Shown here: positions 3,743-41,387 of the stretch, one piece after another
Numbering within the stretch: position 1 is the first letter of the stretch
Layout of the letters: each line of letters begins with the position of its first letter
DNA from: a virus
Length of the DNA: 41,981 nucleotides
IMG/VR virus record: IMGVR_UViG_3300026097_000041
Coordinates: 1 to 41,981 of that record
Strand: one strand, 5' to 3'
Notes under the pieces: model-generated
Databases searched by the model: none
What the model saw: the letters and a program-made list of their open reading frames with translations, nothing else
What the model was told of the DNA's origin: nothing
Position numbers and translations under genes: made by a program

Positions 3743-3906
3743 TGGATAGACAATCAAAAGACGAAAATACATCAAAAGAACAAATCGACGAATTCTTAGC
3801 AAAAGGTGGTACCATTACTAAGTGTCCTCCAGGAGCACGTACAGAAAACATCGAAGTTAAGGGCGGCTTCTACGGCCGTAAAAAGAAAAAGGACGATGAT
3901 GAATGA
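3739..3906 (+). CDS. Small protein with FLAKGG motif
   Basis: A 55-residue hydrophilic protein. Its core EQIDEFLAKGGTIT resembles EMIDAFLKKGGAVT in the protein at 38174-38356, and its C-terminus is strongly charged (RKKKKDDDE). The two genes are probably members of one small phage family. The role is unknown; the basic patch could bind nucleic acid. The start overlaps the mazG-like stop and the stop overlaps the protease start (ATGA). Confidence 0.6.
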   Translation: MMDRQSKDENTSKEQIDEFLAKGGTITKCPPGARTENIEVKGGFYGRKKKKDDDE

Positions 3907-19023: not shown

Positions 19024-19590
19024 ATGGAACACTTTGTAAGAATAGTAATGGAAAAACAAGAAGGCGCTCAGTTGTTAGACGAGAGTGTTTTTGCAGAACA
19101 AGAAATTTATGAAACTGAGCAGGGCGGCACGGTATTTCAAATACCTCTATCTCGTCAACTAGACGAATCTGAAGCAGACGAATATGCTCAACGTCTAGCA
19201 AATTATATGTTTGAACAAGGTTATGAAGACTTCGACATTGAAATTTCAACAGACGAGGACGTTGCTGAAGATGAAATTACTTACGAAGACGACGATGAAT
19301 TTTTTGAAGACTACGGTGTTATGTGGTTCAACGAGGATGATGATTTAGACGAAGCAGAGTATCAAGGACGTAAAGTTAAACTAGGCAAGCCTACACGCGG
19401 TGATGTTAAAAAGTTTAAAGTATATGTAAAGAATCCAAAGGGTAATGTAGTTAAAGTTAACTTCGGTGATCCTAATAGTAAGATTAAAAAATCTAATCCA
19501 GCACGTAGACGTTCATTCCGTGCTAGACACAACTGCGACAATCCTGGACCTCGTCATAAGGCAAGATTTTGGAGTTGTAGAAAATGGTGA
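19024..19590 (+). CDS. Probable head-cluster protein, acidic middle and basic Cys tail
   Basis: A 188-residue protein. The first 110 residues are strongly acidic (residues 73-115 are rich in Asp and Glu). The last 75 are basic (KLGKPTRGDVKKFKVYV...) and end in a tail with two cysteines, RRRSFRARHNC to RFWSCRKW. I recall this tail as a recurring module of head-associated proteins in T4-like marine phages. A scaffold or packaged role is inferred from that and from its neighbours. Confidence 0.7.
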   Translation: MEHFVRIVMEKQEGAQLLDESVFAEQEIYETEQGGTVFQIPLSRQLDESEADEYAQRLANYMFEQGYEDFDIEISTDEDVAEDEITYEDDDEFFEDYGVMWFNEDDDLDEAEYQGRKVKLGKPTRGDVKKFKVYVKNPKGNVVKVNFGDPNSKIKKSNPARRRSFRARHNCDNPGPRHKARFWSCRKW

Positions 19591-19907
19591 GATTAGTAGA
19601 ATTTGAAACAAAAGAAATGCCATTTGATGTAGTAGACGATGTTGCTATCTATATGCGCAACGATCCTATGATATACCGCAAGCAATTGTTTCCTGCTATT
19701 ATGCGTATGAAAAGTTCATACGATAAAGGCAAATCTCCAGATCCTGAAAAGTGTTTAGGCGAAGCATGTAATGCTGCAATGGAAAGTTATTGCGAAAAGT
19801 TTCAATTAGGTTCTCCACAAAATGTCTTTAAAAAAGGCGACAGAGAGTCTATAATAGATAAACTATTTGCAGAAGAATTAACACAGATTCGTAACGGAGC
19901 ATATTAA
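19584..19907 (+). CDS. Hypothetical protein
   Basis: A 107-residue helical protein (FETKEMPFDVVDDVAIYMRND...) with three cysteines. It overlaps both neighbours (7 bases upstream, 1 base downstream). No recognised domain. The position in the head-type cluster suggests an assembly role only. Confidence 0.7.
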   Translation: MVRLVEFETKEMPFDVVDDVAIYMRNDPMIYRKQLFPAIMRMKSSYDKGKSPDPEKCLGEACNAAMESYCEKFQLGSPQNVFKKGDRESIIDKLFAEELTQIRNGAY

Positions 19908-20998
19908 TGCGTTTTGGAGAGTTTCGTCAAGTATTAACAGAAGCAGCACAAAAAGGTCGTGAATACAATCACTTAGAAGACCTAGTATTTTTTCACGGTT
20001 CAGAAGGCGCTAATAAAGCGGCAGACGAACTAGAACGTCTAGGAACAGACACTAGCGATGTTGCTATTAAGTGGGATGGATATCCTACTATGTACTGGGG
20101 ACGCGAACCTAACGGACAATTTGTTCTTGTAGGCAAGAACGGATGGGGACGCAACAAGTCAACTAGTGCAAAAGACTTATATAAGTTTATTACAAGTACA
20201 GGCAAAGGCGAGGAATGGCGAGATCGTTTTGGAAAAGAAATGGCTGCTATTTTTAATCTTATGGAAGCAGCAACTCCTTCAGATTTCCGCGGCTATGTCT
20301 ACGGCGATCTACTATATCATCCTGGCAAACCATTTACAAGTTCAGGTGATAGTGTAGAGTTTACTCCAAATCTCGTCACATACACAGTCAAGAAGGAAAG
20401 CCAACTTGGCGGGCGCATAGCAGATTCAAAAGTTGGTGTAGTAGTTCATACAAAATATGACGAGTTTGGTAGTAAATCTGGTACACCTATAAGCGATGTA
20501 GAAGAATTAAATTCTAAAGATGTAGTCGTACTAGGACAAACTTATGTTGCACATCAACCTAAGGTTGATACGGCAGAAGTTAAAGAAATACGTGCATTAA
20601 ATTCAAAAGTTGGTCCTGCTATAGACAAGTTTTTAGCACCTGTTAAAGGTCTAAGCGACATGCACAACATTATATACACATACGTTAATCAAACAAGTCG
20701 AGCAAAACAGCTAGATAATTTAGAAAACGGGTTTTTTGACTGGCTAAGTAATAGTAAAGTAAGTGTAAACAAGCAAGCAAAGATCAAAGCAATGCACGAC
20801 GAAAATCCTCAAGCACTACCTGGAATATTTGCTCTTGTTAAAAAGATTATGACGGTTAAAGACCATATCATTGCACAATTAGATGATGCTGATGCAGATG
20901 TAAAACAATCAACATCGGGCGAAAAAGGCGGAGAAGGGTATGTTGCCCTTGGTAGTAAAACTAAACTAGTACCAAGAAGCAGATGGCAACCTAATTAG
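19907..20998 (+). CDS. Ligase-like covalent nucleotidyltransferase-fold protein, possible packaged protein
   Basis: A 363-residue protein of a family I recall as DUF6267-like in T4-type phages. AIKWDGYPTMYWG places K55-W-D-G58 like motif I (KxDG) of DNA and RNA ligases. GYVYGDLLY (129-137) resembles motif III and VGVVVHTKY (176-184) resembles motif IV. The N-terminus MRFGEFRQVLTEAA matches a T4 capsid-targeting peptide with a predicted gp21-type cut after LTE (residue 12). It may be carried in the head and injected. Ligase activity is not established. Confidence 0.7.
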   Translation: MRFGEFRQVLTEAAQKGREYNHLEDLVFFHGSEGANKAADELERLGTDTSDVAIKWDGYPTMYWGREPNGQFVLVGKNGWGRNKSTSAKDLYKFITSTGKGEEWRDRFGKEMAAIFNLMEAATPSDFRGYVYGDLLYHPGKPFTSSGDSVEFTPNLVTYTVKKESQLGGRIADSKVGVVVHTKYDEFGSKSGTPISDVEELNSKDVVVLGQTYVAHQPKVDTAEVKEIRALNSKVGPAIDKFLAPVKGLSDMHNIIYTYVNQTSRAKQLDNLENGFFDWLSNSKVSVNKQAKIKAMHDENPQALPGIFALVKKIMTVKDHIIAQLDDADADVKQSTSGEKGGEGYVALGSKTKLVPRSRWQPN

Positions 20999-21006
20999 GA
21001 TTAACG

Positions 21007-21825
21007 ATGTTTTTAAGAGAATTATTTGAAGCACCTGGAAAAACAGCAGTATTAGCATTTGGTAGATTAAATCCGCCAACTGTAGGACACGCAAAGCTAG
21101 TAGATAAACTTACTAGCATTAAAGGCGATCATTATCTCTTTTTATCACACACACAAAAGCCTAAAACTGATCCATTGGACTTTGCTACTAAAGCTAAGTT
21201 TGCAAAACAATTCTTTCCAAATGTTACCGTAGGCCATCAAGCAGTTCGTACCCCTGTGCAAGCATTAGAATTTTTACAATCACAAGGTTATACTGACGTT
21301 ATCTTTATTGCTGGTAGTGACAGAGTAGATGGTTTCCAAAAACTATTCGATACATACAACGGTAAAGCCGACAAAACAGGTAAAGTACCATTTAAATTTA
21401 ACTCGATTCGTGTAGTAAGTGCAGGCGAACGTGATCCAGACGCTGATGACGTAAGTGGAATGAGTGCATCAAAGATGCGAGCACTAGCAGCACAAGGCGA
21501 ATTAGAATCGTTTGCACAAGGTGTTCCAGACAAGAAACTAGCACAAACTATGTACGATGCTGTACGCAAAGGTATGGGTGTTAAAGATAATGTCGCAGCA
21601 GAAGATGCTAGTGGTGAAGAAGAAGATGAATTTCACCGTAAGCTAGATAAACTTGTACACAAAACTTTTGGTCACAGCAGTGATGAAAAGAAAAAGAAAA
21701 AAGCAAATGAAAAGGCTCCTCCAGGCAGAGAGAAGCAAGTCAAAGCACTAAAGAAAAAGTTTGATGATCCCAGTGCACCGTATGCTATTGCGTGGGCACA
21801 GCACAACAAGAAGAAAAAGAAGTAA
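21007..21825 (+). CDS. Cytidylyltransferase-fold nucleotidyltransferase with basic tail, possible packaged protein
   Basis: A 272-residue protein. The domain at 13-190 is NadD/PPAT-like: TVGH (25-28) is the nucleotide-binding (H/T)xGH motif and GMSASKMR (151-158) matches ISSTxxR. An acidic linker follows, then a very basic tail with EKQVKALKKKFDDPSAPYAI and a final KKKKK. The N-terminus MFLRELFEAPG resembles a capsid-targeting peptide cut after LFE. The substrate could be NMN, nicotinate mononucleotide or another nucleotide. It may act on pyridine nucleotides after injection; inference. Confidence 0.75.
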   Translation: MFLRELFEAPGKTAVLAFGRLNPPTVGHAKLVDKLTSIKGDHYLFLSHTQKPKTDPLDFATKAKFAKQFFPNVTVGHQAVRTPVQALEFLQSQGYTDVIFIAGSDRVDGFQKLFDTYNGKADKTGKVPFKFNSIRVVSAGERDPDADDVSGMSASKMRALAAQGELESFAQGVPDKKLAQTMYDAVRKGMGVKDNVAAEDASGEEEDEFHRKLDKLVHKTFGHSSDEKKKKKANEKAPPGREKQVKALKKKFDDPSAPYAIAWAQHNKKKKK

Positions 21826-22040: not shown

Positions 22041-22249
22041 TGTTTAAACGTTTGAGAAGGGCATTAAATCCGTGGTATATCTTAGAAGTTACACATCGTG
22101 GATTAGAAAGACGCATAATTGTAAAAAATTTTAAAAAGAAAACACCTAAACTATTAAGTGGATACGATAGCGACGGTAATTGGTTTGAATTAAAATCTGA
22201 CACACCCATGGACTATTATATAGCAGAATACAAAGACGATCTAAAATGA
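22040..22249 (+). CDS. Small hypothetical protein
   Basis: A 69-residue protein, basic at the N-terminus (MFKRLRRALNPWYILEVTHRG). A predicted small beta-rich fold follows and the end is acidic. It shares overlaps with both neighbours (TAATG and ATGA). No family is recognised. Confidence 0.65.
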   Translation: MFKRLRRALNPWYILEVTHRGLERRIIVKNFKKKTPKLLSGYDSDGNWFELKSDTPMDYYIAEYKDDLK

Positions 22250-23301
22250 GAATTAGAGAAATAACAGAAGCTGTTGGACGTATTACTAAACAGAACCAAA
22301 CCGTTGATGTAGGACCTGACGAAATCAAAACACAGGCTAAAAAGTTTGGTAATAGTGTAGACCGAGATGGGCGCCCGCCTACACTAAGCAAGAAAGTAAA
22401 AGGCAAATCAACTAATGTGTTGTACAACCTAGGACTTGCTGAAGGTTACAAACTACAACTAGAGCGTGACCGAGAACTATTGGTATTAAACATTACTGAT
22501 ACAAAGACAGGCAAGCGTACAGAAGTGCGTGGCAAACCAGGTTACGAAACCAATTACGATCCCAACGATAGTTTGCACATACTATTAGACAAAGTAGGCA
22601 AGAGTGCTAATATTAGTGAACTAATGAACGGCGAAGTTGTAACTATTAATCCTAAACATCCAGATGCTGATCGTGCAAAAGCAGCAACAGACAAGGCTTA
22701 TAGCGAAGCATTTGATACTGATGTAGAATGGATCAAGGGTGCTGCACCACAGGGCGCTAGTGTGTTTGCTGCGAAGGTCGATGACGCTTATATTGAGATA
22801 ACTTACAAGCCAATGAACAAAGGCGTTTATATAAGTTTTACTCGTGGTGCAAGAATGAGTGTAACTGGCGAAGGTGGTCAGAACAAAATATTCGGTGCTG
22901 TTATCAATCATATTAAAAAATGGGTTGATGCTAACAACCCACAAGAAATATACTTTAGTGCATTTAAGCCTCGCACTGGAGCATTTGGATCTCAAGACAA
23001 TACAAGAAGCGGACTATATCGCAAAATGGTACAACGCTTTGCCAGTCAAAACGGTTATAACTACGATGTAGAAGACACTGGCAATGAAGATACTTTTATT
23101 CTTAAAAGACAAGGCGTAGAAGAAAACTTTGCTGATGGTAAGAAAAAAGGCAAAAGCAGACCCGGACGTTTTAAAAAAGCAGGCGTTAGTTGTAAAGGCA
23201 GTGTGACTAGTCTTCGTAAAAAAGCAAAGAACGCTAGCGGCGAAAGACAAAAAGGTTACCACTTTTGCGCCAACATGAAATCAGGCAGAAAGAAAAAATA
23301 A
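22246..23301 (+). CDS. Probable packaged head protein with Cys-bearing basic tail
   Basis: A 351-residue protein. The N-terminus MRIREITEAVG resembles a capsid-targeting peptide cut after ITE. Residues 160-290 form a mixed domain (FAAKVDDAYIEITYKPM; RSGLYRKMVQRFASQNGY) that is faintly acetyltransferase-like; I do not assign it. The last 55 residues are basic with GKSRPGRFKKAGVSCKGS and a second Cys in YHFCANMKSGRKKK, a tail module I recall from other T4-like marine phages. An enzymatic role is not shown. Confidence 0.7.
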   Translation: MRIREITEAVGRITKQNQTVDVGPDEIKTQAKKFGNSVDRDGRPPTLSKKVKGKSTNVLYNLGLAEGYKLQLERDRELLVLNITDTKTGKRTEVRGKPGYETNYDPNDSLHILLDKVGKSANISELMNGEVVTINPKHPDADRAKAATDKAYSEAFDTDVEWIKGAAPQGASVFAAKVDDAYIEITYKPMNKGVYISFTRGARMSVTGEGGQNKIFGAVINHIKKWVDANNPQEIYFSAFKPRTGAFGSQDNTRSGLYRKMVQRFASQNGYNYDVEDTGNEDTFILKRQGVEENFADGKKKGKSRPGRFKKAGVSCKGSVTSLRKKAKNASGERQKGYHFCANMKSGRKKK

Positions 23302-23405
23302 TGGACATTGAGTATTACGTAGAAAAGTATAAAGAACACGAAGCACAAAGACTAAGTACTAACGAACGTAATGCATTTTGGAGACAATACAATGAAAATA
23401 AGTGA
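23301..23405 (+). CDS. Very small hypothetical protein
   Basis: A 34-residue charged protein (MDIEYYVEKYKEHEAQRLS...). Its start overlaps the upstream stop (TAATG) and its end overlaps the next gene. Supported only by the junction pattern and by the absence of another gene in this stretch. Confidence 0.45.
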   Translation: MDIEYYVEKYKEHEAQRLSTNERNAFWRQYNENK

Positions 23406-23565
23406 ACTATGCGAAACAACAGCAGGGGCAGTAGCAGCCGTTGCAACTCCAGTAGGCGGTAATAAAATGCAAAAACGTAATCCAGACGGTACTGCTAAAA
23501 ATGCTCTCGACGGCGACACACTAATGGCTGGCAAAAAATCTAAAGCAAAAAAGAAAAAGGCATAA
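23392..23565 (+). CDS. Small basic prohead-core-like protein
   Basis: 57 residues when begun at the ATG at 23392, which has a GGAG 9 bases upstream. MKISELCETTAG is of the same style as the capsid-targeting N-termini in this cluster. The middle (GGNKMQKRNPDGTAKNALD) and the end (KKSKAKKKKA) are typical of small T4-like prohead core proteins. It probably binds DNA or scaffold. Confidence 0.65.
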   Translation: MKISELCETTAGAVAAVATPVGGNKMQKRNPDGTAKNALDGDTLMAGKKSKAKKKKA

Positions 23566-23597: not shown

Positions 23598-24110
23598 ATG
23601 TCTAATAAAAAAGTTCAAGAAGGACTAGGCGAACTTGCCGATATGGCAGAACGTGATCATGAAGTACAAATGGCACGTGCCGACCTATATAAAATTGCCA
23701 AGTATGCAATTAAATTGCACGATATGTTAAAGCAGGTTACAGAAGCTGAAGGTATCGAAGGATGGCAACAATCAAAAATTACAAAAGCAGCTGACTATAT
23801 CGGTAGTGTATATCATTCACTAGACTATGATATGAAGTTTGGCGAAGCAGAAGTAACAGAAGCTCGCGATACACATTGTTCAGACAAATGCTGCGGATCA
23901 GATGTGAAAGCAGAAGATTGTACTTGCCCGCCAACTTGTAAGCATTGTAATTGTAACGCAAAAAATGTTGAAGAAGGTAAATCACCTCACAAAAAAGGTA
24001 CTAAAAAGTACAAAAAGCATATGGCAGCAATGCACGCCGAAAGCGCAAAAGACGAGTATAAGTCACATCTGCGTCATAAACTAGCTGAAAAAACCAATAA
24101 ACTAAAATGA
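23598..24110 (+). CDS. Head-cluster protein with cysteine-rich, probable metal-binding segment
   Basis: A 170-residue protein. The helical N-terminal domain (about 1-90, GELADMAERDHEVQMARADL) is followed by a dense cysteine cluster (about residues 94-116, ten Cys in a CxxxCC/CxC pattern with one His). That cluster could bind two metal ions. A basic tail follows with KSPHKKGTKKYKKHMAAMHA, another recurring phage tail module. A ribosome site GGAG precedes the ATG. A scaffold or packaged role is inferred from context. Confidence 0.7.
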   Translation: MSNKKVQEGLGELADMAERDHEVQMARADLYKIAKYAIKLHDMLKQVTEAEGIEGWQQSKITKAADYIGSVYHSLDYDMKFGEAEVTEARDTHCSDKCCGSDVKAEDCTCPPTCKHCNCNAKNVEEGKSPHKKGTKKYKKHMAAMHAESAKDEYKSHLRHKLAEKTNKLK

Positions 24111-24901
24111 AAAAGTTAAGTATAGAACAAGCCGAACCGATTCGCAAAAAGTTTACTCCAGACTGGGAGATTCGCAAGGGTAAATATCTATACAAGAAAG
24201 TAGCGTTTGATGATTATAATCAGGCGCTGCGTTTTTTCATGGTTATCGAAAAACCACAAGTTAAACTAGATCACTTTGCCGACATGGGTTTCTTTTATAA
24301 TGAAGTTACTATGATGGTTTACACACACGATGTAGGCGGACTTACACAACTAGACTTTGAACTTGCTCTATACATTGACGAAGCACTGAAGCAAATGGGT
24401 GCTAGACAACTAGAAGAGGCTATGCCGTATACAGGAAAAAGTCCTTTATACAAAGGTAAACGTATTCCAACAGACGACAAAGCAGATAGTAAAGATATTA
24501 CGAAGAAGTCTAAGAAGGTAGACTTACCTGATGAACCTACTGACTTTGATTTCGGAAATGTAGACAGAGAAAAGCTAAAGAAAGTAGTAGCTAAATTAAT
24601 TCCTACACTAGGTAACGAAAAAAATCAAAAAGTATTACAAGCACGATTTGGCCTACCACCTTTTGAAAAAGCATATACACTTGCTCAAATAGCAAAAGCA
24701 ATGGGGGTAACTCCTGAAGTTATTCGCCAAAGAGAAGCAAAGGCCTTGCGCCAATTAAGACATCCGGATAGAGCAAGAGAACTAAGACCGTTCTTAGATC
24801 ATATAGAAGAAAAATGGTCATCATCGTATAAGAAAAGTATCGATTGTTCAAACCCAAAAGGATTTAGTCAAAAGGCACACTGCGCTGGGAGAAAGAAATA
24901 A
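24107..24901 (+). CDS. Fusion: pterin-carbinolamine-dehydratase-like domain + sigma-70 region 4 + Cys tail
   Basis: A 264-residue protein with three parts. Residues 15-95 match the PCD/DCoH family: DHFADMGFFYNEVTMMVYTH, then GGLTQLDFELALYID. His56 and His74 are kept, but the second His of the usual HH pair is Phe57, so catalysis may be lost. Residues 153-235 match sigma-70 region 4: LQARFGL, TLAQIAKAMGVTPEVIRQRE as the helix-turn-helix, and ALRQLRHPDRARELRPFL. No region 2 is present. The end (SIDCSNPKGFSQKAHCAGRKK, 244-264) is a recurring phage tail module. It may bind the RNA polymerase flap or -35 DNA; inference. Confidence 0.8.
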   Translation: MKKLSIEQAEPIRKKFTPDWEIRKGKYLYKKVAFDDYNQALRFFMVIEKPQVKLDHFADMGFFYNEVTMMVYTHDVGGLTQLDFELALYIDEALKQMGARQLEEAMPYTGKSPLYKGKRIPTDDKADSKDITKKSKKVDLPDEPTDFDFGNVDREKLKKVVAKLIPTLGNEKNQKVLQARFGLPPFEKAYTLAQIAKAMGVTPEVIRQREAKALRQLRHPDRARELRPFLDHIEEKWSSSYKKSIDCSNPKGFSQKAHCAGRKK

Positions 24902-25680
24902 TGGATTTTAACGCACTACAACACAAACTATTTGAATTGGATCCTAGTGATCCAAAAGAAGACTTACGTAAACTAGCAGAAGCAGCAAGTGATAATGCGC
25001 AGAAAAGTGCTGAACCTGCTATAGATTACGTGCAGGAAAGTGCAGAAGTTGCTGAAGGCTCGCTTCAAATAGATCGTGATTATAGTGTTAATGACTTTGC
25101 TGCACTAGCAGGAGTACAAGTTAACGAAGGTGCAGCTGATTCTTTTAAAGCAGGGTTTAAGAACTATAATCAGCTAGATGCTCTCAAAAAAGGTGCAGAC
25201 GCAATGGATGATGGTAGTAGCAGTAGTACTGAAAAAACTCCTACGACATCTAAAACTAGTAAGCCTACTAGTATTGCCGATTTATCTAAAGGTGATAGTT
25301 TTAAAGATAGTACCGGCATGGTTTGGTATTATAACCCAAACGAAAGAAACTGGCGTTCTAAAGACAGAAAGAAAACAATATCAGTGCAACGAGGATTTAA
25401 GTTGTGGCAACAATCACAATCAAATCGTAAACGCAATGTTAAAGAAGATCAAATTGAAGCACTAGAATCAAGAGTTGCTTATTTAGAAAGTGTTATCGAA
25501 ACACTTATAGAAGGCAAACAAAAGACTGGTTCAGCAGGACAAGCAAAAGGTAAAGATCCTATGCCTAGTGCAAAGCCTGGTCGTACTAACCATCCTCTAA
25601 AGGATAAATTAGTAGGCGAAGAATATAAATCTATCAAAGAAGAACTTTGGGCAAAACTCAATGCAGCTAATAAATCTTAA
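24901..25680 (+). CDS. Prohead-core/scaffold-like protein
   Basis: A 259-residue hydrophilic protein. The N-terminus MDFNALQHKLFELDPSDPKE is of a type I associate with T4-like core proteins, with a possible gp21-type site LAE/A near residue 27. A Ser/Thr-rich linker (about 105-125), a small WYYNPNERNWRSKD domain and a leucine-rich coiled coil (EALESRVAYLESVIETLIEG) follow. It overlaps the gene before it by one base. Catalysis is not expected. Confidence 0.6.
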   Translation: MDFNALQHKLFELDPSDPKEDLRKLAEAASDNAQKSAEPAIDYVQESAEVAEGSLQIDRDYSVNDFAALAGVQVNEGAADSFKAGFKNYNQLDALKKGADAMDDGSSSSTEKTPTTSKTSKPTSIADLSKGDSFKDSTGMVWYYNPNERNWRSKDRKKTISVQRGFKLWQQSQSNRKRNVKEDQIEALESRVAYLESVIETLIEGKQKTGSAGQAKGKDPMPSAKPGRTNHPLKDKLVGEEYKSIKEELWAKLNAANKS

Positions 25681-26293
25681 ACCTGATTTTACTGCATATC
25701 CATATCTTACACACCCAATAGAACGATCTTTAGTTGAAACACTACCTTTTAAAGACTTTGACAAGGACGGTTACGAAGTTCCTACTCCACTAGAACACTT
25801 GCATTACGAAGCAAACGGTGTAGAACTAAATCGAGAAATACAATTTCACATAGCACCCGTACAAGAATGGTATCGTGACACGGATCAAAGCGAAGTTAAT
25901 CTAGTTCTTGACCATTGTATGCTGCTAACACGTTATGCATTTGCTGGAGAAGCAAGAGAGCAAATTGTAGAAGTTTGCCAGCAACGTCCTATACTACAAA
26001 AGCTATTAAACATTAAACCCAAATGGGGTATTGACTTTAGTCTAGACTTTGTGAGTCACGATCTAGTGATGGAAGTGATACATATCGAACAAGACTTTGA
26101 TAATGTAGAAGATGCATATGCTGCTAAAGAAAAACTAGAAAACATTATTGACAATACCGATTGGTACGAAGGCGCTATCAAACTATGGCAGCGCAAAGAC
26201 GAATGGATCAATCTATCATCAGACGACCATTCGGACTATAAGGCACAATTCTTTGGATGGGATCGTGCGTTCGACAACAAAAAAGTGTTTTAA
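25661..26293 (+). CDS. Hypothetical protein
   Basis: A 210-residue acidic protein (MQLINLKPDFTAYPYLTHPIE...) with no recognised motif. It overlaps the scaffold-like gene by 20 bases and its ribosome site is weak. It ends just before the promoter at 26298 and so closes the head-type cluster transcriptionally. Confidence 0.75.
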   Translation: MQLINLKPDFTAYPYLTHPIERSLVETLPFKDFDKDGYEVPTPLEHLHYEANGVELNREIQFHIAPVQEWYRDTDQSEVNLVLDHCMLLTRYAFAGEAREQIVEVCQQRPILQKLLNIKPKWGIDFSLDFVSHDLVMEVIHIEQDFDNVEDAYAAKEKLENIIDNTDWYEGAIKLWQRKDEWINLSSDDHSDYKAQFFGWDRAFDNKKVF

Positions 26294-26297
26294 ACAC

Positions 26298-26326
26298 TTG
26301 ACAATTATCTAAATATATCATATAAT
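26298..26326 (+). promoter_or_regulatory. Host-type promoter TTGACA-17-TATAAT
   Basis: Perfect consensus: TTGACA 26298-26303, 17-bp spacer, TATAAT 26321-26326, preceded by AACAC as at 2214 and 39722. The TATAAT also forms a 6-bp dyad with ATTATA at 26336-26341, but the region is so AT-rich that this may be chance. Confidence 0.9.
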
Positions 26327-26360: not shown

Positions 26361-26621
26361 ATGAGTGACCGCGTCTACGGGCCAGAAGAAAAGGCAAAAT
26401 TAGAAAGACTTGTAAAAGAAGGCGTAAATGTTATGCAAGAAGTAGAAGATCTAAATGCAGGTCTTAAAGAAACTGTTAAAGCAGTAGCAGAAGAATTAAA
26501 CGTTAAACCCGCACTAATTAACAAAGCAATTAAAATTGCTAAGAATCGTGATTGGGAAAATCACGCAGATGCACACGAAGATCTCGAAACACTCATAGCA
26601 ACTTTAGGTTATGACAAGTGA
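26361..26621 (+). CDS. DsbA-like double-stranded DNA-binding protein
   Basis: An 86-residue helical protein resembling T4 DsbA (a small DNA-binding protein linked to late promoters) in size and general pattern: a charged N-terminal helix, KAVAEELNVKPALINKAIKIA as a helix-turn-helix-like middle, then an acidic C-terminus. A strong promoter and an AGGAG site precede it, so early or middle expression is likely. The match is from memory and modest. Confidence 0.55.
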   Translation: MSDRVYGPEEKAKLERLVKEGVNVMQEVEDLNAGLKETVKAVAEELNVKPALINKAIKIAKNRDWENHADAHEDLETLIATLGYDK

Positions 26622-27140: not shown

Positions 27141-27206
27141 TTTTAGAGTCGCTCACTTTACGAGCAGGTTGAAGGTTAGTTGGCCATAAACAACAAGGAG
27201 AAATAA

Positions 27207-29876
27207 ATGCCATACGTAGATGCGATGTTCGATCGCGATCAAGATATTATTCGTGTCGTTGAAAGACGTGACGGAAAGAGACACTATACTGAGTACAATG
27301 CAAAGTATACTTTCTACTACAAAGACCCTAAGGGCAAATACAAAAGCGTATACGGCGATCCGTTAAGTCGCATTGTGTGTAAGAACACAAAAGACTTTCG
27401 CAAAGAAGTTGCTATCAACAAAGATAAAACACTTTTCGAAAGCGATGTAAATCCAATCTTCCAGTGTCTGAGTGAGAACTATCTCAATCAAGATGCTCCT
27501 AAACTAAACATTGCTTTTTTCGATATTGAGACAGACTTTGATCCGGAACGAGGCTTTGCTGATCCTGCTGATCCGTTTATGCCTATTACATCGATAAGTG
27601 TATATTTGCAATGGCTAGAAACAATGGTGTGTCTTGCTGTTCCACCTAAGACTCTTACTATGGAGCAGGCAAAGGCAGAGCTTGAAGGCATTGACAATGT
27701 AATGCTGTTTGAGCGAGAAGGTGAGATGATTGACACCTTCTTGACACTGATTGAAGATGCTGATATCTTAAGTGGTTGGAACAGCGAAGGTTATGATATT
27801 CCATACACCGTAAACAGAACTTCTCGTGTGTTGAGTAAAGATGACACACGTAGATTCTGCTTGTGGGGACAATTGCCTAAGAAAAGAGAATATGAAAAAT
27901 ACGGGAAGCAAGCTGTTACATTTGATTTAATAGGTCGTGTACACTTGGATAGTTTGGAATTGTATCGCAAGTATACATATGAAGAACGACACACATATCG
28001 ACTGGATGCTATCGGTGAGATTGAAGTAGGCGAGAACAAGGTGCCATATGAAGGTACACTGGATCAATTGTACAACAACGACTTCCGCAAGTTCATTGAA
28101 TACAACATTCAAGATACTGCACTGCTAGACAAACTAGACAAGAAACTTCGCTTTATTGACTTGAGCAATTCAATTGCTCATGAAAACACGGTGTTGCTAC
28201 AAACGACAATGGGTGCTGTTGCTGTTACAGAGCAAGGTATTATCAACGAAGCACACAATCGAGGATTACAAGTGCCTAATCGCAAGCAACGTGATGAAGA
28301 AAACACACAAGCAGCAGGTGCATATGTTGCATTTCCTAAGAAAGGCTTGCATAAGTGGGTAGCATCAATGGACTTGAACTCACTTTATCCTAGTGTGATT
28401 CGTGCGCTGAACATGGCCCCAGAGACTATTGTAGGACAGATTCGAGCGGAGATTAGTGATGCCCGTGTACACGAAGACATGACACTAAAGAAAAAGAGCT
28501 TTGCAGGCAGTTGGGAAGGTAGATTTGCGACAGAAGAATACGAAGCAGTTATGGATCAACGCAAGGACATTGCACTTACTATTGATTGGGAAGATGGTAG
28601 GTCGGATGTACTTTCAGGTGCGGAGATTTATCAACTTATATTCGACTCAAATATGCCTTGGATGCTTAGTGCTAATGGTACTATATTTACAACAGAGTTT
28701 GAAGGTGTAATTCCAGGTATCCTAAAGCGTTGGTATGCTGAACGTAAAGACATGCAGAAGATGCTGAAAAAAGCAAAAGACGCTAAAAATGATGCTGAAA
28801 TTGAATACTGGGATAAACGACAGCTGGTTAAGAAGATTAACTTGAATAGTTTGTATGGTGCGATTCTTAACCCTGGTTGTAGGTTCTTCGATAAACGCAT
28901 TGGACAATCAACTACACTCACCGGTAGACAGATTGTTAAGCATATGAGTGCAGAAGCAAACAAAACTATTACAGGTGAATATGATCATGTGGGCAAGGCT
29001 GTAATTTATGGTGATACTGACTCTGTGTACTTTAGTGCTTGGCCTGTGCTTAAAGATGATATCGAAAGCGGCAAGTTAGAATGGTCGACTGAGAAAGCTA
29101 TTGCGCTATATGATCAAGTAGCAGATCAAGTGGACACAACGTTTATTGACTTTATGGGTCGTGCATTCCATTGTCCTAAGAGTCGTGCAGACGTAATTGC
29201 AGCAGGCAGAGAGATCGTTGCTCTGAGCGGTTTATATATTACTAAGAAGCGTTATGCAGCATTAGTAGTAGACAACGAAGGCTTTAGAACAGATGTAGAC
29301 GGTAAGCCAGGTAAAGTAAAAGCAATGGGTTTGGACTTGAGACGTTCAGATACTCCGGTGTTTATGCAAGACTTCTTAAAAGAACTACTGCTAATGGTAC
29401 TTACTGATGTGCCACAAAAAGAAGTACTAGATCGTATTACAGAGTTTCGCAAGGAGTTCGGTGCAAGACCTGGTTGGGAGAAAGGATCTCCCAAACGTGC
29501 AAACAAAGTTGGTCACTATCAGCGTCTTGAAGAAAAACAAGGCAAAGCAAACATGCCCGGACACGTTCGAGCAAGCATCAACTGGAATACGCTCAAGCGT
29601 ATGAACGGTGACAAATACTCGCAAGAAGTTGTAGATGGCATGAAAGTTATTGTTTGCAAGCTCAAACAGAATCCATTGGGTTATACCTCTGTAGCATATC
29701 CTACAGATGAGTTGCGTTTGCCAGAGTGGTTTAAAGAGTTGCCCTTTGATGATGCAGCAATGGCAGAAACTATTATTGATAACAAACTAGACAACTTGAT
29801 TGGTGTGTTAGACTATCCATTAGAAGATACTAAATCACACACTACATTTTCTAGTTTGTTTGATTTCGGAGATTGA
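27207..29876 (+). CDS. Family B DNA polymerase (T4 gp43 type)
   Basis: An 889-residue replicative polymerase, near the T4 length. Proofreading exonuclease: Asp106 and Glu108 in FFDIETDFDP, GWNSEGYDIPY, and YNIQDTALL. Polymerase: motif A DLNSLYPSVIR (from Asp389), motif B KINLNSLYG, motif C YGDTDSVY (601-608, Asp603 and Asp605). It acts with the clamp loader (5111) and clamp (32251). The 66-base leader has an AAGGAG site and a short GCTC/GAGC inverted repeat (27152-27166). No consensus promoter was found directly upstream; the nearest is at 26298. Confidence 0.96.
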   Translation: MPYVDAMFDRDQDIIRVVERRDGKRHYTEYNAKYTFYYKDPKGKYKSVYGDPLSRIVCKNTKDFRKEVAINKDKTLFESDVNPIFQCLSENYLNQDAPKLNIAFFDIETDFDPERGFADPADPFMPITSISVYLQWLETMVCLAVPPKTLTMEQAKAELEGIDNVMLFEREGEMIDTFLTLIEDADILSGWNSEGYDIPYTVNRTSRVLSKDDTRRFCLWGQLPKKREYEKYGKQAVTFDLIGRVHLDSLELYRKYTYEERHTYRLDAIGEIEVGENKVPYEGTLDQLYNNDFRKFIEYNIQDTALLDKLDKKLRFIDLSNSIAHENTVLLQTTMGAVAVTEQGIINEAHNRGLQVPNRKQRDEENTQAAGAYVAFPKKGLHKWVASMDLNSLYPSVIRALNMAPETIVGQIRAEISDARVHEDMTLKKKSFAGSWEGRFATEEYEAVMDQRKDIALTIDWEDGRSDVLSGAEIYQLIFDSNMPWMLSANGTIFTTEFEGVIPGILKRWYAERKDMQKMLKKAKDAKNDAEIEYWDKRQLVKKINLNSLYGAILNPGCRFFDKRIGQSTTLTGRQIVKHMSAEANKTITGEYDHVGKAVIYGDTDSVYFSAWPVLKDDIESGKLEWSTEKAIALYDQVADQVDTTFIDFMGRAFHCPKSRADVIAAGREIVALSGLYITKKRYAALVVDNEGFRTDVDGKPGKVKAMGLDLRRSDTPVFMQDFLKELLLMVLTDVPQKEVLDRITEFRKEFGARPGWEKGSPKRANKVGHYQRLEEKQGKANMPGHVRASINWNTLKRMNGDKYSQEVVDGMKVIVCKLKQNPLGYTSVAYPTDELRLPEWFKELPFDDAAMAETIIDNKLDNLIGVLDYPLEDTKSHTTFSSLFDFGD

Positions 29877-29877
29877 T

Positions 29878-30294
29878 ATGCGAGTAGGATTTGTATGTAG
29901 TAGTTTTGATTTGCTTCATGCCGGACATGTGCAAATGTTGCGTGAAGCAAAAGAACAATGTGACTATTTGATTTGCGGATTACAGACTGATCCTACATTA
30001 GATAGGCCAGAAAAAAATCAGCCTGTACAAACTATTGTAGAGCGTTATACCCAACTTAAAGGTGTTCGGTATGTGGATGAAATCATCCCCTATGCTACAG
30101 AAAAAGACCTAGAAGATATCTTGACAATGTATCATATTGATGTTAGAATACTAGGTGAAGAGTATCGTGAAAAGGATTTTACAGGCAAGGATATTTGCAA
30201 GAAGCGGGGTATCCAGCTACACTTTAATAAACGAGATCACCGCTTTTCATCAAGCGACTTAAGAAAACGTGTAGCAGAAAGAGAAAACAAATGA
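29878..30294 (+). CDS. Cytidylyltransferase-like protein (TagD-type)
   Basis: A 138-residue protein of the small HxGH nucleotidyltransferase type. LLHAGHVQML carries the HAGH motif, RILGEEYREKDFTGK follows, and RFSSSDLRKR is the C-terminal ISSTxLR-type motif. Glycerol-3-phosphate cytidylyltransferase is the closest guess; the substrate may be a sugar phosphate. I start at the ATG at 29878 with GGAG upstream. An upstream frame to 29860 overlaps the polymerase end. Confidence 0.8.
   Translation: MRVGFVCSSFDLLHAGHVQMLREAKEQCDYLICGLQTDPTLDRPEKNQPVQTIVERYTQLKGVRYVDEIIPYATEKDLEDILTMYHIDVRILGEEYREKDFTGKDICKKRGIQLHFNKRDHRFSSSDLRKRVAERENK
30121..30149 (+). promoter_or_regulatory. Candidate promoter TTGACA-17-TAGAAT inside a coding sequence
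   Basis: TTGACA 30121-30126, 17-bp spacer, TAGAAT 30144-30149 (one mismatch). It would serve the small genes from 30291 and the HAD/epimerase pair. Confidence 0.45.
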
Positions 30295-30482
30295 GCAAAG
30301 CATTTTGGCGAGGATTTCGAGAAGGATTTACACAAACCAGCAAATATGGTATTCCTATTGCTGTAGCATTTGTTGTAGGACTTACATTAGGATCTTGGAG
30401 TCATCCTTACGAACATTGTAAGCGTATGTATGACACAGCGGAAGACTTTGCAGAATGTATGTGGATCAAGGAGAATCCGTGA
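30291..30482 (+). CDS. Small membrane protein
   Basis: A 63-residue protein: a basic amphipathic start, one membrane helix (about residues 18-36, YGIPIAVAFVVGLTLGSW), then a short loop with two cysteines (HCKRMYDTAEDFAECMW). That loop is probably exposed outside the cytoplasm. It overlaps the cytidylyltransferase stop (ATGA). The function is unknown. Confidence 0.65.
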   Translation: MSKAFWRGFREGFTQTSKYGIPIAVAFVVGLTLGSWSHPYEHCKRMYDTAEDFAECMWIKENP

Positions 30483-30643
30483 TGTGGGTGGTTTGGATTG
30501 TTAGCACAGTTATTGGGTTGGATGAACCTCGTTGGACACGCTACGCAGAAGTAAACCATTTTGAAACTTGTGAACATGTTGCACGTCAACTAGAAGCAGA
30601 ATTTACACAAGGTGAATATGTGGTGTGCGACAATGGCAGTTGA
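30482..30643 (+). CDS. Small hypothetical protein
   Basis: A 53-residue protein with an N-terminal hydrophobic stretch (MWVVWIVSTVIG) and a polar body containing two cysteines (FETCEHVARQLEAEF; YVVCDNGS). It may be a short signal-anchored protein. Its start shares one base with the upstream stop and its end overlaps the next gene by 11 bases. Confidence 0.55.
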   Translation: MWVVWIVSTVIGLDEPRWTRYAEVNHFETCEHVARQLEAEFTQGEYVVCDNGS

Positions 30644-30803
30644 AGAATACGACATTGAATGGTTGCAGGAACAGATTTACGAGTTACAAGATGCAATCCG
30701 CGAACTCCAAATGGAGAACACTCTGCTACACAACGATCTAAATACCATTAAGAACGAAGGCTGTTGGCGTTTTATAGAGGATAAAAATCATAAACATGAA
30801 TAA
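30633..30803 (+). CDS. Small coiled-coil protein
   Basis: 56 residues from the ATG at 30633. Residues 8-40 form a clear heptad pattern (WLQEQIYELQDAIRELQME). Probably an oligomerising protein; no function is recognised. Confidence 0.6.
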   Translation: MAVEEYDIEWLQEQIYELQDAIRELQMENTLLHNDLNTIKNEGCWRFIEDKNHKHE

Positions 30804-31506
30804 ATTCGTATTTGATGTAGACGGAACATTAACACCGAGCCGTCAAAGCATAGATCCAGAGTTTAAAGAGTTCTTTAAAACTTTTATTCAAGATAACAAG
30901 GTGTGGCTGGTAACTGGCAGCGATTATCCAAAGACTGTAGAACAGCTTGGTGCAGACATTACAGAGTCAGTTGTTACTTGTTATAATTGTAGTGGAAGTG
31001 ATGTTTGGTTCAAGGGCAAGCGGGTAAATTCTAAAACATTTGACGCACCAAAAGAACTATATGACTTAATGAATGGTTGGTTACAGGCTAGTCCTTTTCC
31101 AGTAAGAACAGGGCGGCATATTGAAGAACGTCCAGGAATGATTAATTTTAGTATTGTAGGCAGAGGTGCTTCTTTAGAAGAACGCAAGATGTATATAGAT
31201 TACGATACTGCTAATAGAGAACGTGAAAGTATTGCTTACGAAATCAACAGCAAGTTCGAAAATATTACTGCTACATTAGGTGGCGAAACCGGCATTGACA
31301 TTGCTTATACAGGTGCGGACAAAAGTCAAATACTACAAGATTTTGAGGATGATGATTTTATTGTATTCTTTGGCGATCGAATGGAAGAAGGCGGCAATGA
31401 TTGGCCTTTAGCATTAGCCAACTATAATGGTGAAAATTATCATGTAAAAGATTGGAAACATACTTGGGAGATTCTAAAGAATGAATATTCTACTAACAGG
31501 TCATAG
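30796..31506 (+). CDS. Phosphomannomutase-like HAD phosphatase/mutase
   Basis: A 236-residue HAD-superfamily protein. The nucleophile loop is D7-V-D9-G-T (FDVDGTLTPSR). GMINFSIVGRG and FFGDRMEEGGND match the eukaryotic-type phosphomannomutase (PMM) branch, in which mannose-6-phosphate and mannose-1-phosphate are interconverted. It lies between a cytidylyltransferase and an epimerase, suggesting a small sugar-nucleotide pathway. The true substrate is uncertain. Confidence 0.75.
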   Translation: MNKFVFDVDGTLTPSRQSIDPEFKEFFKTFIQDNKVWLVTGSDYPKTVEQLGADITESVVTCYNCSGSDVWFKGKRVNSKTFDAPKELYDLMNGWLQASPFPVRTGRHIEERPGMINFSIVGRGASLEERKMYIDYDTANRERESIAYEINSKFENITATLGGETGIDIAYTGADKSQILQDFEDDDFIVFFGDRMEEGGNDWPLALANYNGENYHVKDWKHTWEILKNEYSTNRS

Positions 31507-32254
31507 AGGATTTATCGGTAGTGCGTTATACAGACGCCTAACAACAAAGGGTCACGATGTACATGGAATTGACATTAAGCAAGGTCCGCAGTTTGACTTG
31601 CTACATTATACTGATTGGCCTGAGGTAGATCTTGTTGTACACCTAGCAGGCAAGAGCGGTGTACGTGAAAGTGCAGGCGATCCTGCCAGTTACTGGTTTA
31701 ATAACGTAGAAGCAAGCAGACGACTATTTGATCGTTACGAAGGTACACGTATACTATATGCGAGCAGTTCGAGTGCTTACGAGCCCGATTTGAACCCTTA
31801 TGCAGCAAGCAAGTATGTATTAGAAGAACTATCTGAACGTTATAGTCCATTAGATATGTTAGGTATGCGTTTTCATACAGTGTACTCGGATAGTTGCCCT
31901 AGAGAAAATATGTTTTTTAACAAACTGCGCAACGGTACACTAGAATATACAACTAGACACTATAGAGATTTTATACATCTAGAAGATGTGCTAGACGCAA
32001 TTGAAATATTAATCAGTAAACCTCACATAAAAGGTACTATTGATATTGGTACGGGGCATCCTGTTAGGATCCAAGACTTAGCACCAGATCTACCGGTTCG
32101 TCTAAATACCCCAGGAGAGAGGAGTTGGACTTGTGCTAACATGGAAAAAATGCGAGCACTGGGCTTTGAACCTAAATATACAGTAGAAAAATTCTTGACA
32201 GACAACAATATAGGCAATATAATAAACTTATTTAATGGAGAAAAGGTAACATGA
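31481..32254 (+). CDS. NAD-dependent sugar epimerase/dehydratase (extended SDR)
   Basis: A 257-residue Rossmann protein with G7-x-x-G10-x-x-G13 (TGHRGFIG), a Ser-rich YASSSSAYE segment and the catalytic Y-x3-K in NPYAASKY. This is the UDP-glucose-4-epimerase-like family. It overlaps the PMM-like gene by 26 bases. Together they could make a sugar nucleotide for the glycosyltransferase at 36337; inference. A perfect promoter for the next gene lies in its last codons. Confidence 0.85.
   Translation: MNILLTGHRGFIGSALYRRLTTKGHDVHGIDIKQGPQFDLLHYTDWPEVDLVVHLAGKSGVRESAGDPASYWFNNVEASRRLFDRYEGTRILYASSSSAYEPDLNPYAASKYVLEELSERYSPLDMLGMRFHTVYSDSCPRENMFFNKLRNGTLEYTTRHYRDFIHLEDVLDAIEILISKPHIKGTIDIGTGHPVRIQDLAPDLPVRLNTPGERSWTCANMEKMRALGFEPKYTVEKFLTDNNIGNIINLFNGEKVT
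32195..32223 (+). promoter_or_regulatory. Host-type promoter TTGACA-17-TATAAT inside the epimerase gene
   Basis: Perfect consensus: TTGACA 32195-32200, TATAAT 32218-32223. It lies 28 bases before the clamp ATG, which has its own GGAG site. Confidence 0.8.
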
Positions 32255-38655: not shown

Positions 38656-38926
38656 GAGCAAAGTAATCAAATGGGTCCGCGAAGATTGGGACGCACAATA
38701 CGAGAAGAATGCTGTATCAGGCATTCGATTAGATGAAAGTGTTCGTATGGATGCAGAACCTACTCTAAACTTCCGTGTATTCCCAGCAGTAGGTGGACAG
38801 GTTGTAGAGTTTAGACGCTATGATCGCGTAAAAGATCATAGCGATGTTACTACATACATCATCAACAAAGATGATGACTTTGGCGAAAAGATTAGTAAGA
38901 TTGCAAACTTGGAGTTGCTCAAATGA
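38642..38926 (+). CDS. Hypothetical protein
   Basis: A 94-residue protein: a basic Trp-rich start (MKWLKSKVIKWVREDWD), then a beta-rich part (TLNFRVFPAVGGQVVEFRRYD). It overlaps both neighbours. No domain is recognised. Confidence 0.7.
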   Translation: MKWLKSKVIKWVREDWDAQYEKNAVSGIRLDESVRMDAEPTLNFRVFPAVGGQVVEFRRYDRVKDHSDVTTYIINKDDDFGEKISKIANLELLK

Positions 38927-39486
38927 TTAAAAAACATTATTACAGCTGGCAAGACGTTGAAGACGCTTGTGTAAACATTGCACTACAGATGTACAAAGAC
39001 AACTGGCGTCCTGACTATATTGTAGGCATTACTAGAGGTGGCAACGTACCTGCTACTATTTTATCTAACATGCTAGATGTTCGTTGCGAAGCACTAAAGG
39101 TTAGTTTGCGTGATGACGAAATGGGTCCAGAAAGCAATCTTTGGATGGCAGAAGATGCATTTGGTTATGTAGACGCAGAAGAACAAAAAGATGTCGGATG
39201 TCGCTGGGATAATAAGAAACGTAAAAACATTCTTGTTGTAGATGACATCAACGACACTGGTGCTACGTTTAACTGGATCAAACAAGACTGGCAGAGCAGT
39301 TGTTTGCCAAACGAAGACACCGCTTGGAATAGTGTTTGGAATGGCGACATAGCAAATGTAAGATTTGCAACTATTACAGAAAACCTGTCAAGTGAGTTTG
39401 GTGGTGTGCGCTACAGCGCACACGAAGTTAACAAAGCAGAAGACCCCTGCTGGTTGGTATTCCCCTGGGAAAACGTCGGACAATAA
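38923..39486 (+). CDS. Purine-type phosphoribosyltransferase
   Basis: A 187-residue type I phosphoribosyltransferase. The PRPP-binding loop is NILVVDDINDTGATF. YIVGITRGGNVPATILSNML is the usual first loop. The closest look is to xanthine/hypoxanthine/guanine enzymes (Gpt type). It could salvage the guanine released by DpdA, or load a deazaguanine base onto ribose; both are inference from context. It is coupled to the previous gene by ATGA. Confidence 0.85.
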   Translation: MIKKHYYSWQDVEDACVNIALQMYKDNWRPDYIVGITRGGNVPATILSNMLDVRCEALKVSLRDDEMGPESNLWMAEDAFGYVDAEEQKDVGCRWDNKKRKNILVVDDINDTGATFNWIKQDWQSSCLPNEDTAWNSVWNGDIANVRFATITENLSSEFGGVRYSAHEVNKAEDPCWLVFPWENVGQ

Positions 39487-39807: not shown

Positions 39808-40494
39808 ATGAAGAAATACGAAGAAATTATCGAACGCTGCAAAGCCGCAGACAAACGCTATTGGGCAGGCGACAACATTGCTCGCTTGCTACAAAGCGGC
39901 GACAAAGAAAAATTGATTGACGAAGCTACAGAAGCATTTGAAACTGTACTAGACACACTAGTAATTGATAGGCATACAGATCCTAACAGCAAGGGTACAG
40001 CAAGACGTCTTGCTAAGATGTACTTTAATGAGATTATGGCAGGACGCTATGACTATCGTCCAGATGCAACTGCATTTCCTAATGATTCAGAAGATCGCTA
40101 CGAAGGTATGCTTGTGGTGCGTTCAGAGCTAAAGAGCATGTGTAGTCACCATCACCAGCCAGTAAGCGGTGTTGCATACATTGGTATTATTGCCGCAGAC
40201 AAACTTATTGGACTATCTAAGTACACACGTATTGCACAATGGTGTGCAAGACGCGGGACACTGCAAGAAGAACTTGCAAATGATATTGCACGTGAGATTG
40301 CATACTCAACAGGTGCAACTAACTTAGGTGTTTATATTCAGGCGGTGCACGGATGCTGTGAGAATCGTGGCATTATGGCACATAGCAGTCTCACACAGAC
40401 AACCGTGCTAAAGGGTTCATTCAAAGACGATCCTGCTACAAAGAAAGAGTTTTTTGACAACATTAAACTACAGCAGGAGTTTGCACCAAGATGA
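39808..40494 (+). CDS. folE: GTP cyclohydrolase I (FolE)
   Basis: A 228-residue enzyme that turns GTP into dihydroneopterin triphosphate, the first step of both folate and 7-deazaguanine synthesis. Zinc ligands are Cys112 and His115 in MCSHHHQPVSG and Cys183 in HGCCENRG. GLSKYTRIAQWCARRGTLQE is the family signature. It heads the folE-queE-metK unit with its own promoter and dyad. A CGGAG site precedes the ATG. Confidence 0.93.
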   Translation: MKKYEEIIERCKAADKRYWAGDNIARLLQSGDKEKLIDEATEAFETVLDTLVIDRHTDPNSKGTARRLAKMYFNEIMAGRYDYRPDATAFPNDSEDRYEGMLVVRSELKSMCSHHHQPVSGVAYIGIIAADKLIGLSKYTRIAQWCARRGTLQEELANDIAREIAYSTGATNLGVYIQAVHGCCENRGIMAHSSLTQTTVLKGSFKDDPATKKEFFDNIKLQQEFAPR

Positions 40495-41387
40495 AACTAC
40501 GATATTCAGAAGCGTTTTATAGTGTGCAAGGCGAAGGCAAGTTTGTAGGAGTGCCCAGTGTATTCCTACGCACATTCGGTTGTAACTTTCGTTGTATGAA
40601 CTTTGGTGTTGATAAAAGTGTTGGCGATCGTTGGGAGCAACATGCTCGCGGTGAACGCTATAATGCAGAAGTAAAAGCATTGCTAGATGCAGGTGTGCAT
40701 GAAACAACTGAGAAGTTTGAAGATTTACCTATCATTCATACAGGTTGTGATACATATGCTAGTATCTACCCTGAGTTCAAAGACTTTAACAAACTTGCAA
40801 CTATCGACGAAGTAGTTGAACACTTGCTTAGTTTGCTGCCAGAAGGCAAGTGGACTATGGATAACGGACAAGATGTACATCTTATCCTTACAGGTGGCGA
40901 GCCACTGCTTGCTTGGCAACGACTATATGTCGAACTATTTGAACATCCTAAAATGGCGGACCTAAAAAATGTCACAATCGAAACCAACACTACGCAGTCT
41001 TTACACGAAGACTTCCTCAATTATCTCAACAGCACTGGACGAATTCGAGTTACTTTTAGTTGCTCACCGAAGCTATCCGTTTCAGGCGAGTCTTGGGATG
41101 ATGCTATTAAGCCTGATGTCGCTAGTCAGTATGCTAGTATTACTGGTAGTGACATTTACTTCAAGTTTGTTGTTGCTGACAGAGACGATGTTGATGAAGT
41201 TACTCGGGCTGTTCAGCAGTACAGGGATGCCGGGGTGGAATGTCCAGTATATCTTATGCCAATGGGCGGACGCAGTGAAGAATATACCCTCAATGTTCAA
41301 GAAGTCGCAGAACTCTGTATGCAACGAGGATGGCGATTCTCACCAAGACTCCACATATCGCTATTCGGAAATGCCTGGGGGACTTAG
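40491..41387 (+). CDS. queE: QueE-like radical SAM 7-carboxy-7-deazaguanine synthase
   Basis: A 298-residue protein, longer than bacterial QueE (about 210-225). YSVQGEGKFVGVPSVFLRTFGCN is the QueE start. Cluster cysteines are C31 and C35 (GCNFRC). The third, C86 in HTGCDTYAS, is displaced by a 50-residue insertion that splits the usual CX3CX2C. LILTGGEPLL is the SAM-binding GGE motif. The product feeds 7-cyano-deazaguanine synthesis; no QueC was seen in the window. The start overlaps folE (ATGA). Confidence 0.88.
   Translation: MKLRYSEAFYSVQGEGKFVGVPSVFLRTFGCNFRCMNFGVDKSVGDRWEQHARGERYNAEVKALLDAGVHETTEKFEDLPIIHTGCDTYASIYPEFKDFNKLATIDEVVEHLLSLLPEGKWTMDNGQDVHLILTGGEPLLAWQRLYVELFEHPKMADLKNVTIETNTTQSLHEDFLNYLNSTGRIRVTFSCSPKLSVSGESWDDAIKPDVASQYASITGSDIYFKFVVADRDDVDEVTRAVQQYRDAGVECPVYLMPMGGRSEEYTLNVQEVAELCMQRGWRFSPRLHISLFGNAWGT

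Follow-up and report, generated by a model that had tools for sequence, protein, structure and literature searches.

A sigma-70 region 4 module joined to a pterin-dehydratase-like domain in a shuffling gene cluster of a T4-like aquatic phage

One open reading frame of this virus joins a pterin-dehydratase-like (PCD/DCoH-like) domain, region 4 of a sigma-70 factor (sigma4) and a Cys-bearing basic tail, and the locus raises the question of whether these parts act together as a regulator or have been brought together for another reason. The window, meaning the whole stretch of DNA that was analysed, is a 42-kb viral record from a T4-like aquatic phage that infects bacteria, with genes for gp43, gp45, a gp44-like clamp loader, a DsbA-like protein and nucleotide metabolism. 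Sinorhizobium phage Phosso (49%) and jumbo phages related to it have the nearest gp43 proteins among named phages, and a tblastn search with gp43 at E <= 1e-3 gave no fewer than 554 matching viral stretches, the 80 best being retained. In the reading that we favor, at a probability of roughly 0.6, the composite protein is a precursor encoded in a cluster for cargo of the prohead core ("internal proteins") in a T4-superfamily phage, with cleavage, packaging and polymerase binding predicted.

Three domains in one open reading frame

An earlier note on this DNA, made from the sequence alone, had described three parts in the frame and had proposed structure prediction and a profile search as checks, both of which were run and bear out the description. 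In the Pfam search, Pterin_4a aligned to residues 4-92 (E=1.2e-18, 67.5 bits against a cut-off of 26) and Sigma70_r4 to residues 170-219 (E=9.6e-12, 44.7 bits against a cut-off of 24.1), and RpoD-type NCBIfam models aligned to residues ~152 to ~232. The AlphaFold2 model was built from 17 relatives, with alignments that mixed sigma4-only and PCD rows left out of the folding as these were misaligned. It placed a PCD fold at residues ~1-100 and a sigma4 fold at ~150-220, with block pLDDT mostly 71-94, and a disordered linker at 104-142 (pLDDT < 50). In Foldseek, the PCD part matched 2ebb with a TM(target) of 0.92 and an rmsd of 1.3 A, and E. coli sigma70 (6psq_L) was matched by the sigma4 part over 77 columns at 45% identity and 2.9 A. 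The first part thus has both the fold and the profile of PF01329, and the second has the region 4 helix-turn-helix of sigma-70 by profiles, AlphaFold2 and Foldseek. Only the C-terminal part of the Pfam and NCBIfam sigma models aligned, with no match to region 2 in the composite protein, in agreement with the earlier note. Taken with Phe57 of the PCD part, these matches mean that the three-part observation stands. As for the tail, its assignment to the head-cluster type is borne out by its recurrence in cyanophage head/neck-region proteins, but the frame itself is adjoined by dsbA and DNA polymerase and not by capsid/portal genes.

The fusion is present in independent assemblies (L001 and L002, 86%; L003, 72%), and an assembly chimera was ruled out on this basis. 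At 822-1641 of L003, directly after sigma4 and beside an A run, a different frame encodes the Cys tail, as the result of a frameshift, slippage or an assembly error. No orthologue of the PCD-sigma protein was found in the cellular genome contigs searched, and a literature search on PCD with phage sigma factors, or on prohead polyproteins, returned nothing relevant.

We take the catalytic PCD (EC 4.2.1.96) motif to be E-x3-H-H-P ... H, with His61, His62 and His79 in the human protein. The domain in the window shares with the PCD/DCoH family (PF01329, COG2154) its fold, H56 and H74, and differs in having Phe for the second His (DHF in place of DHH, as the earlier note had pointed out), Val for the motif Glu and Ala for the motif Pro, so that the active-site motif is not present. 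The Phe is invariant in 17 PCD relatives, and catalytic residues are lost in every relative. The domain is under purifying selection with a dN/dS of ~0.03, and conservation of this strength indicates that it does something; these features hint at a domain that most likely has no catalytic activity and serves in binding or as a structural part. In sequenced phages, PCD had a single weak match, in an unannotated faecal record. The same phage carries a GTP cyclohydrolase gene 16 kb from the composite frame, with GTP cyclohydrolase I, a radical-SAM protein and a phosphoribosyltransferase-like protein encoded at window positions 39808-41387 and 38923-39486.

Table 1. Features of the composite open reading frame and its surroundings in the window. 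A slash marks the putative cut after a protease motif.
Feature	Position	Strand	Basis or remark
Cluster protein; C-terminal module AEYQGRK... after LDE/	19024..19590	+	
DUF6267 cluster protein	19907..20998	+	Weak match to cyanophage S-SM1_189 (T4-GC71)
Nucleotidyltransferase-like cluster protein, N-terminus MFLRELFE/A	21007..21825	+	Homologue of S-SM1_190 (T4-GC190)
Modular cluster protein, N-terminus MRIREITE/A	22246..23301	+	
Small cluster protein, ...MKISELCE/T close to N-terminus	23371..23565	+	
Modular Cys-rich basic cluster protein directly upstream of composite ORF	23598..24110	+	
Composite 264-aa protein: PCD-like, sigma region 4 module, Cys-bearing basic tail	24107..24901	+	ORF, Pfam, NCBIfam, AlphaFold2, Foldseek
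PCD/DCoH-like domain, residues 1-101	24107..24409	+	H56, H74 kept; F57, V52 (motif E), A58 (motif P)
Prohead-protease motif L102-E103-E104/A105, PCD/sigma4-module junction	24410..24418	+	Predicted cleavage
Mobile sigma4 module, residues 105-235	24419..24811	+	Disordered linker (105-~150); sigma-70 region 4 core ~151-233, helix-turn-helix
Prohead-protease motif I233-E234-E235/K236, sigma4/Cys-tail junction	24803..24811	+	Predicted cleavage
Cys-bearing basic tail module KWSSSYKKSIDCSNPKGFSQKAHCAGRKK, residues 236-264	24812..24898	+	Similarity searches
Modular cluster protein directly downstream of composite ORF	24901..25680	+	
Conserved locus protein	25661..26293	+	No match in phage collection
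Perfect sigma70 consensus promoter TTGACA-17-TATAAT	26298..26326	+	Ahead of dsbA; conserved across most relatives
DsbA-like transcription regulator	26361..26621	+	phrog_639

Shuffling of the modules among relatives

Two viral searches recovered about 20 contigs with a PCD gene, most of which encode a stand-alone protein of 102 aa. Other PCD proteins end in an Ala/Gly-rich tail, the Cys tail alone, the Cys tail together with a neighbor's domain, or an unrelated domain, and in L085 and L044 the homologue of ORF 24901 has the PCD as its last part. Accompanied by the same linker, the sigma4 module ends or sits inside the nucleotidyltransferase-like protein at the position of ORF 21007 in L017, L022 and L033; in L036 it comes after an N-terminus that is unrelated. 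Comparison of L017 with its close relative L019 revealed a 219-aa block containing sigma4 that is absent from L019, leaving a clean module-absent site, and no sigma4 was found in the long related records G001 (275 kb) and G002 (200 kb). Among 16 loci spanning the cluster, a tally that takes in a few near-duplicate pairs, five carry PCD and sigma4, eight PCD only and three neither. The protein directly upstream of the composite frame also has its module order swapped in L006. Hits in P-TIM68 and S-SM2 that had looked like sigma4 turned out to be the Cys tail alone.

As the partners of PCD and of sigma4 differ across relatives, the fusion is one of several mosaic states, produced by module shuffling inside one gene cluster, and is not a dedicated PCD-sigma regulator; a single-purpose protein of that kind is rejected on the strength of the module swapping. 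The earlier note had drawn on the fact that animal DCoH is a transcription cofactor to suggest a regulatory role, as a flap binder that diverts the host polymerase and is possibly packaged in the virion. In a dedicated regulator of this type, PCD would dimerise or modulate sigma4 within one stable, polymerase-diverting protein. Both domains are real and both are under purifying selection (dN/dS of 0.10-0.32 for sigma4), which is in favor of such a regulator, but it is very improbable given that PCD and sigma4 are apart in most relatives, with PCD alone or bearing other tails and sigma4 on other proteins or absent, and that the linker between them is disordered, divergent and bounded by protease motifs at both ends.

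Prohead-protease motifs and a probable link to the virion

In T4, L/I-X-E is the motif after which the prohead protease gp21 cleaves, and the same cleavage removes the short capsid-targeting sequences (CTS) from the N-termini of internal proteins (PMC9026906). Both junctions of the composite protein carry L/I-X-E sites, as in T4-type internal proteins. In order to place module boundaries, 260 representative cluster proteins were aligned all against all, and [LIV]xE was found within 5 aa of 247 of the 523 supported boundaries, compared to 98.6+-9.0 at random positions. At the same 523 boundaries there was no enrichment of [LIV]xD, [LIV]xK or [KR]xE; Glu with a residue other than [LIV] at P3 was also mildly enriched at junctions. 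When the junctions were reduced to 205 non-redundant classes, 68 had [LIV]xE versus 37.1+-5.5 (0/1000 shuffles), with the offset peak at zero; because the boundaries are drawn from related proteins, these shuffle probabilities are approximate and the junction counts are not independent events.

The individual domains follow the same pattern. At PCD residues 102-104, [LI][DE]E is present in all 11 extended proteins (about seven distinct extensions) and in none of the 8 without a C-terminal extension, and the internal motif matches of PCD, VIE48 and IDE92, are both within the fold. A motif lies upstream of sigma4 in 7/7 modules, which is unsurprising with the wide search window used, and downstream in 5/7. 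The module begins just past a motif in unrelated contexts, reading LEE/AMPYTGKSPLYKG in the window and LDE/AIPYTGKSPQYKG in L036. Nine modular cyanophage proteins obey the same rule (36/121 versus 18.0+-3.9). The three domains are separate, their junctions carry a T4-type motif, and sigma4 and tail are swapped at this motif between cluster proteins that are otherwise unrelated. As protease motifs flank both domains, PCD and sigma4 are probably separated from each other.

The modular head/neck-region proteins of Kyanoviridae (S-SM2_109, Bellamy gp123 and relatives) share with the composite protein the Cys tail and the occurrence of the motif at junctions, and differ in that PCD and sigma4 were not seen in those examined. 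Several modular "hypothetical" cyanophage proteins (L008-L013, L149-L151) resemble strings of peptides split by [LIVM]xE.

The motif also marks N-termini. It occurs at position 5-15 in 170 of the 260 cluster proteins, and within the window in 7/8 cluster genes versus 5/40 others, with cluster starts such as MLLRELFE/A and MRIREITE/A resembling the T4 CTS. The composite protein has no capsid-targeting N-terminus, as its MKKLSIEQAE is an ordinary PCD start, and the Cys tail is a candidate for its means of entry into the core. The 200-kb record G002, related through its gp43, has genes for homologues of gp55, gp21 and gp23, and its gp23 reads YLSE/T at the position that we take to be equivalent to the T4 cut. 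The ORF 21007 protein matches S-SM1_190 (39%, E 1e-41), which has the T4 IPIII-like N-terminus MKKFSAFLNE/A. Sullivan et al. (PMC3037559) report S-SM1_190 (T4-GC190) among the proteins detected in purified S-SM1 virions. The idea of virion packaging, which the earlier note had raised, is indirectly supported.

A predicted route from capsid to host polymerase

These observations are consistent with a route in which the composite precursor would join the prohead core and be cut by a gp21-like protease into PCD (1-104), the sigma4 module (105-235) and the tail (236-264). The freed sigma4 fragment would then reach the next host inside the capsid and may there bind -35-type DNA and the beta flap of RNA polymerase, and so bias or block host sigma70 early in infection. 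T4 Alt, which is cleaved, packaged and modifies RNA polymerase, is the precedent for a cargo protein acting on polymerase. The cluster further resembles T4 IPI-III and Alt in its L/I-X-E motif, CTS-like N-termini and highly variable cargo; it differs in that T4 proteins consist of one cargo with terminal propeptides, whereas here several domains are swapped at the motif, and in that the composite frame has no CTS.

Of seven sigma4 modules, six retain the RFG motif together with the -35 contacts E585/R588/Q589 (E. coli numbering), the exception being that of L036, which differs at 585. Without region 2 the module is not a sigma factor by itself, and because these residues are retained a flap-binding role stays plausible; the natural prediction from its sequence is that sigma4 binds the beta flap, whether or not it also contacts -35 DNA. 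It resembles region 4 of group 1 sigma-70 (RpoD) locally at up to ~50% identity with the helix-turn-helix intact, and differs from RpoD in being a mobile module in a protein that lacks regions 1-3. The same residues bear on the idea that sigma4 is a mere DNA-binding module that condenses or anchors the genome in the head with no role at RNA polymerase. The neighboring modules are very basic, and T4 cargo proteins contact packaged DNA (PMC3012670), both in favor of this idea, but a plain basic domain would need neither the -35 contacts nor the RFG flap-side motif that are held here under purifying selection, and we consider it quite unlikely.

A further alternative is that of a late-transcription coactivator in the infected cell, in which sigma4 would be a gp33-type flap binder working with a gp55-like factor as a split sigma, with no packaging. 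We take dsbA to adjoin gene 33 in T4, and the composite gene is close to dsbA. In addition, gp33 is described as mimicking sigma4 at the flap, and gp55 with gp33 as a split sigma (PMC2988020), and G002 encodes a gp55 homologue. The composite protein resembles gp33 in having a sigma4 equivalent with no region 2, in a T4-superfamily phage, and with beta-flap binding predicted; it differs in that gp33 has no DNA recognition, whereas the module is a true RpoD-type sigma4 with -35 contacts. At its C-terminus the gp33 type has a sliding-clamp-binding motif; the composite protein ends in the Cys-bearing basic tail. Sigma4 is moreover dispensable, as it was not found in G001 and G002 and is missing from the module site of L019, and for this reason an accessory role in early infection fits better than an essential role in late transcription. 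Promoters of the form CTTGACA-TATA are enriched in the window (5 versus 0.27 expected), but the dsbA promoter with its -35 element is equally kept in relatives without sigma4, which rules out a requirement of sigma4 for -35 promoters and speaks against the coactivator. This alternative also leaves the shuffling and the protease-motif junctions unexplained, and is unlikely overall.

If the packaged-precursor reading holds, modules bounded by protease sites would be a plug-in system for injected effectors. More tentatively, and with a good deal less confidence than in the precursor itself, we suggest that T4-superfamily aquatic phages have interchangeable cargo polyproteins, in which a pure sigma region 4 plug-in would capture host polymerase at DNA entry, before phage expression. 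Under the rule that a junction is a prohead-protease site, the "hypothetical, modular" proteins of marine T4-like phages would become predicted lists of injected peptides, and sigma4 would be a testable candidate for an injected transcription effector in a phage group known from metagenomes only.

Other features of the window were also recorded. The gp43 leader (27142-27206) contains a conserved element, AGAAGGTTAAGTTGGCCATAAGCAAC, with a short hairpin ahead of it whose sequence varies with apparent compensation in ~20 relatives; the element had no Rfam match and may act as a translational operator for DNA polymerase. A subtilase-family peptidase is encoded at 3903-5111, and genes of sugar-nucleotide type (cytidylyltransferase-like, phosphomannomutase-like and NAD-dependent epimerase) are found at 29860-32254.
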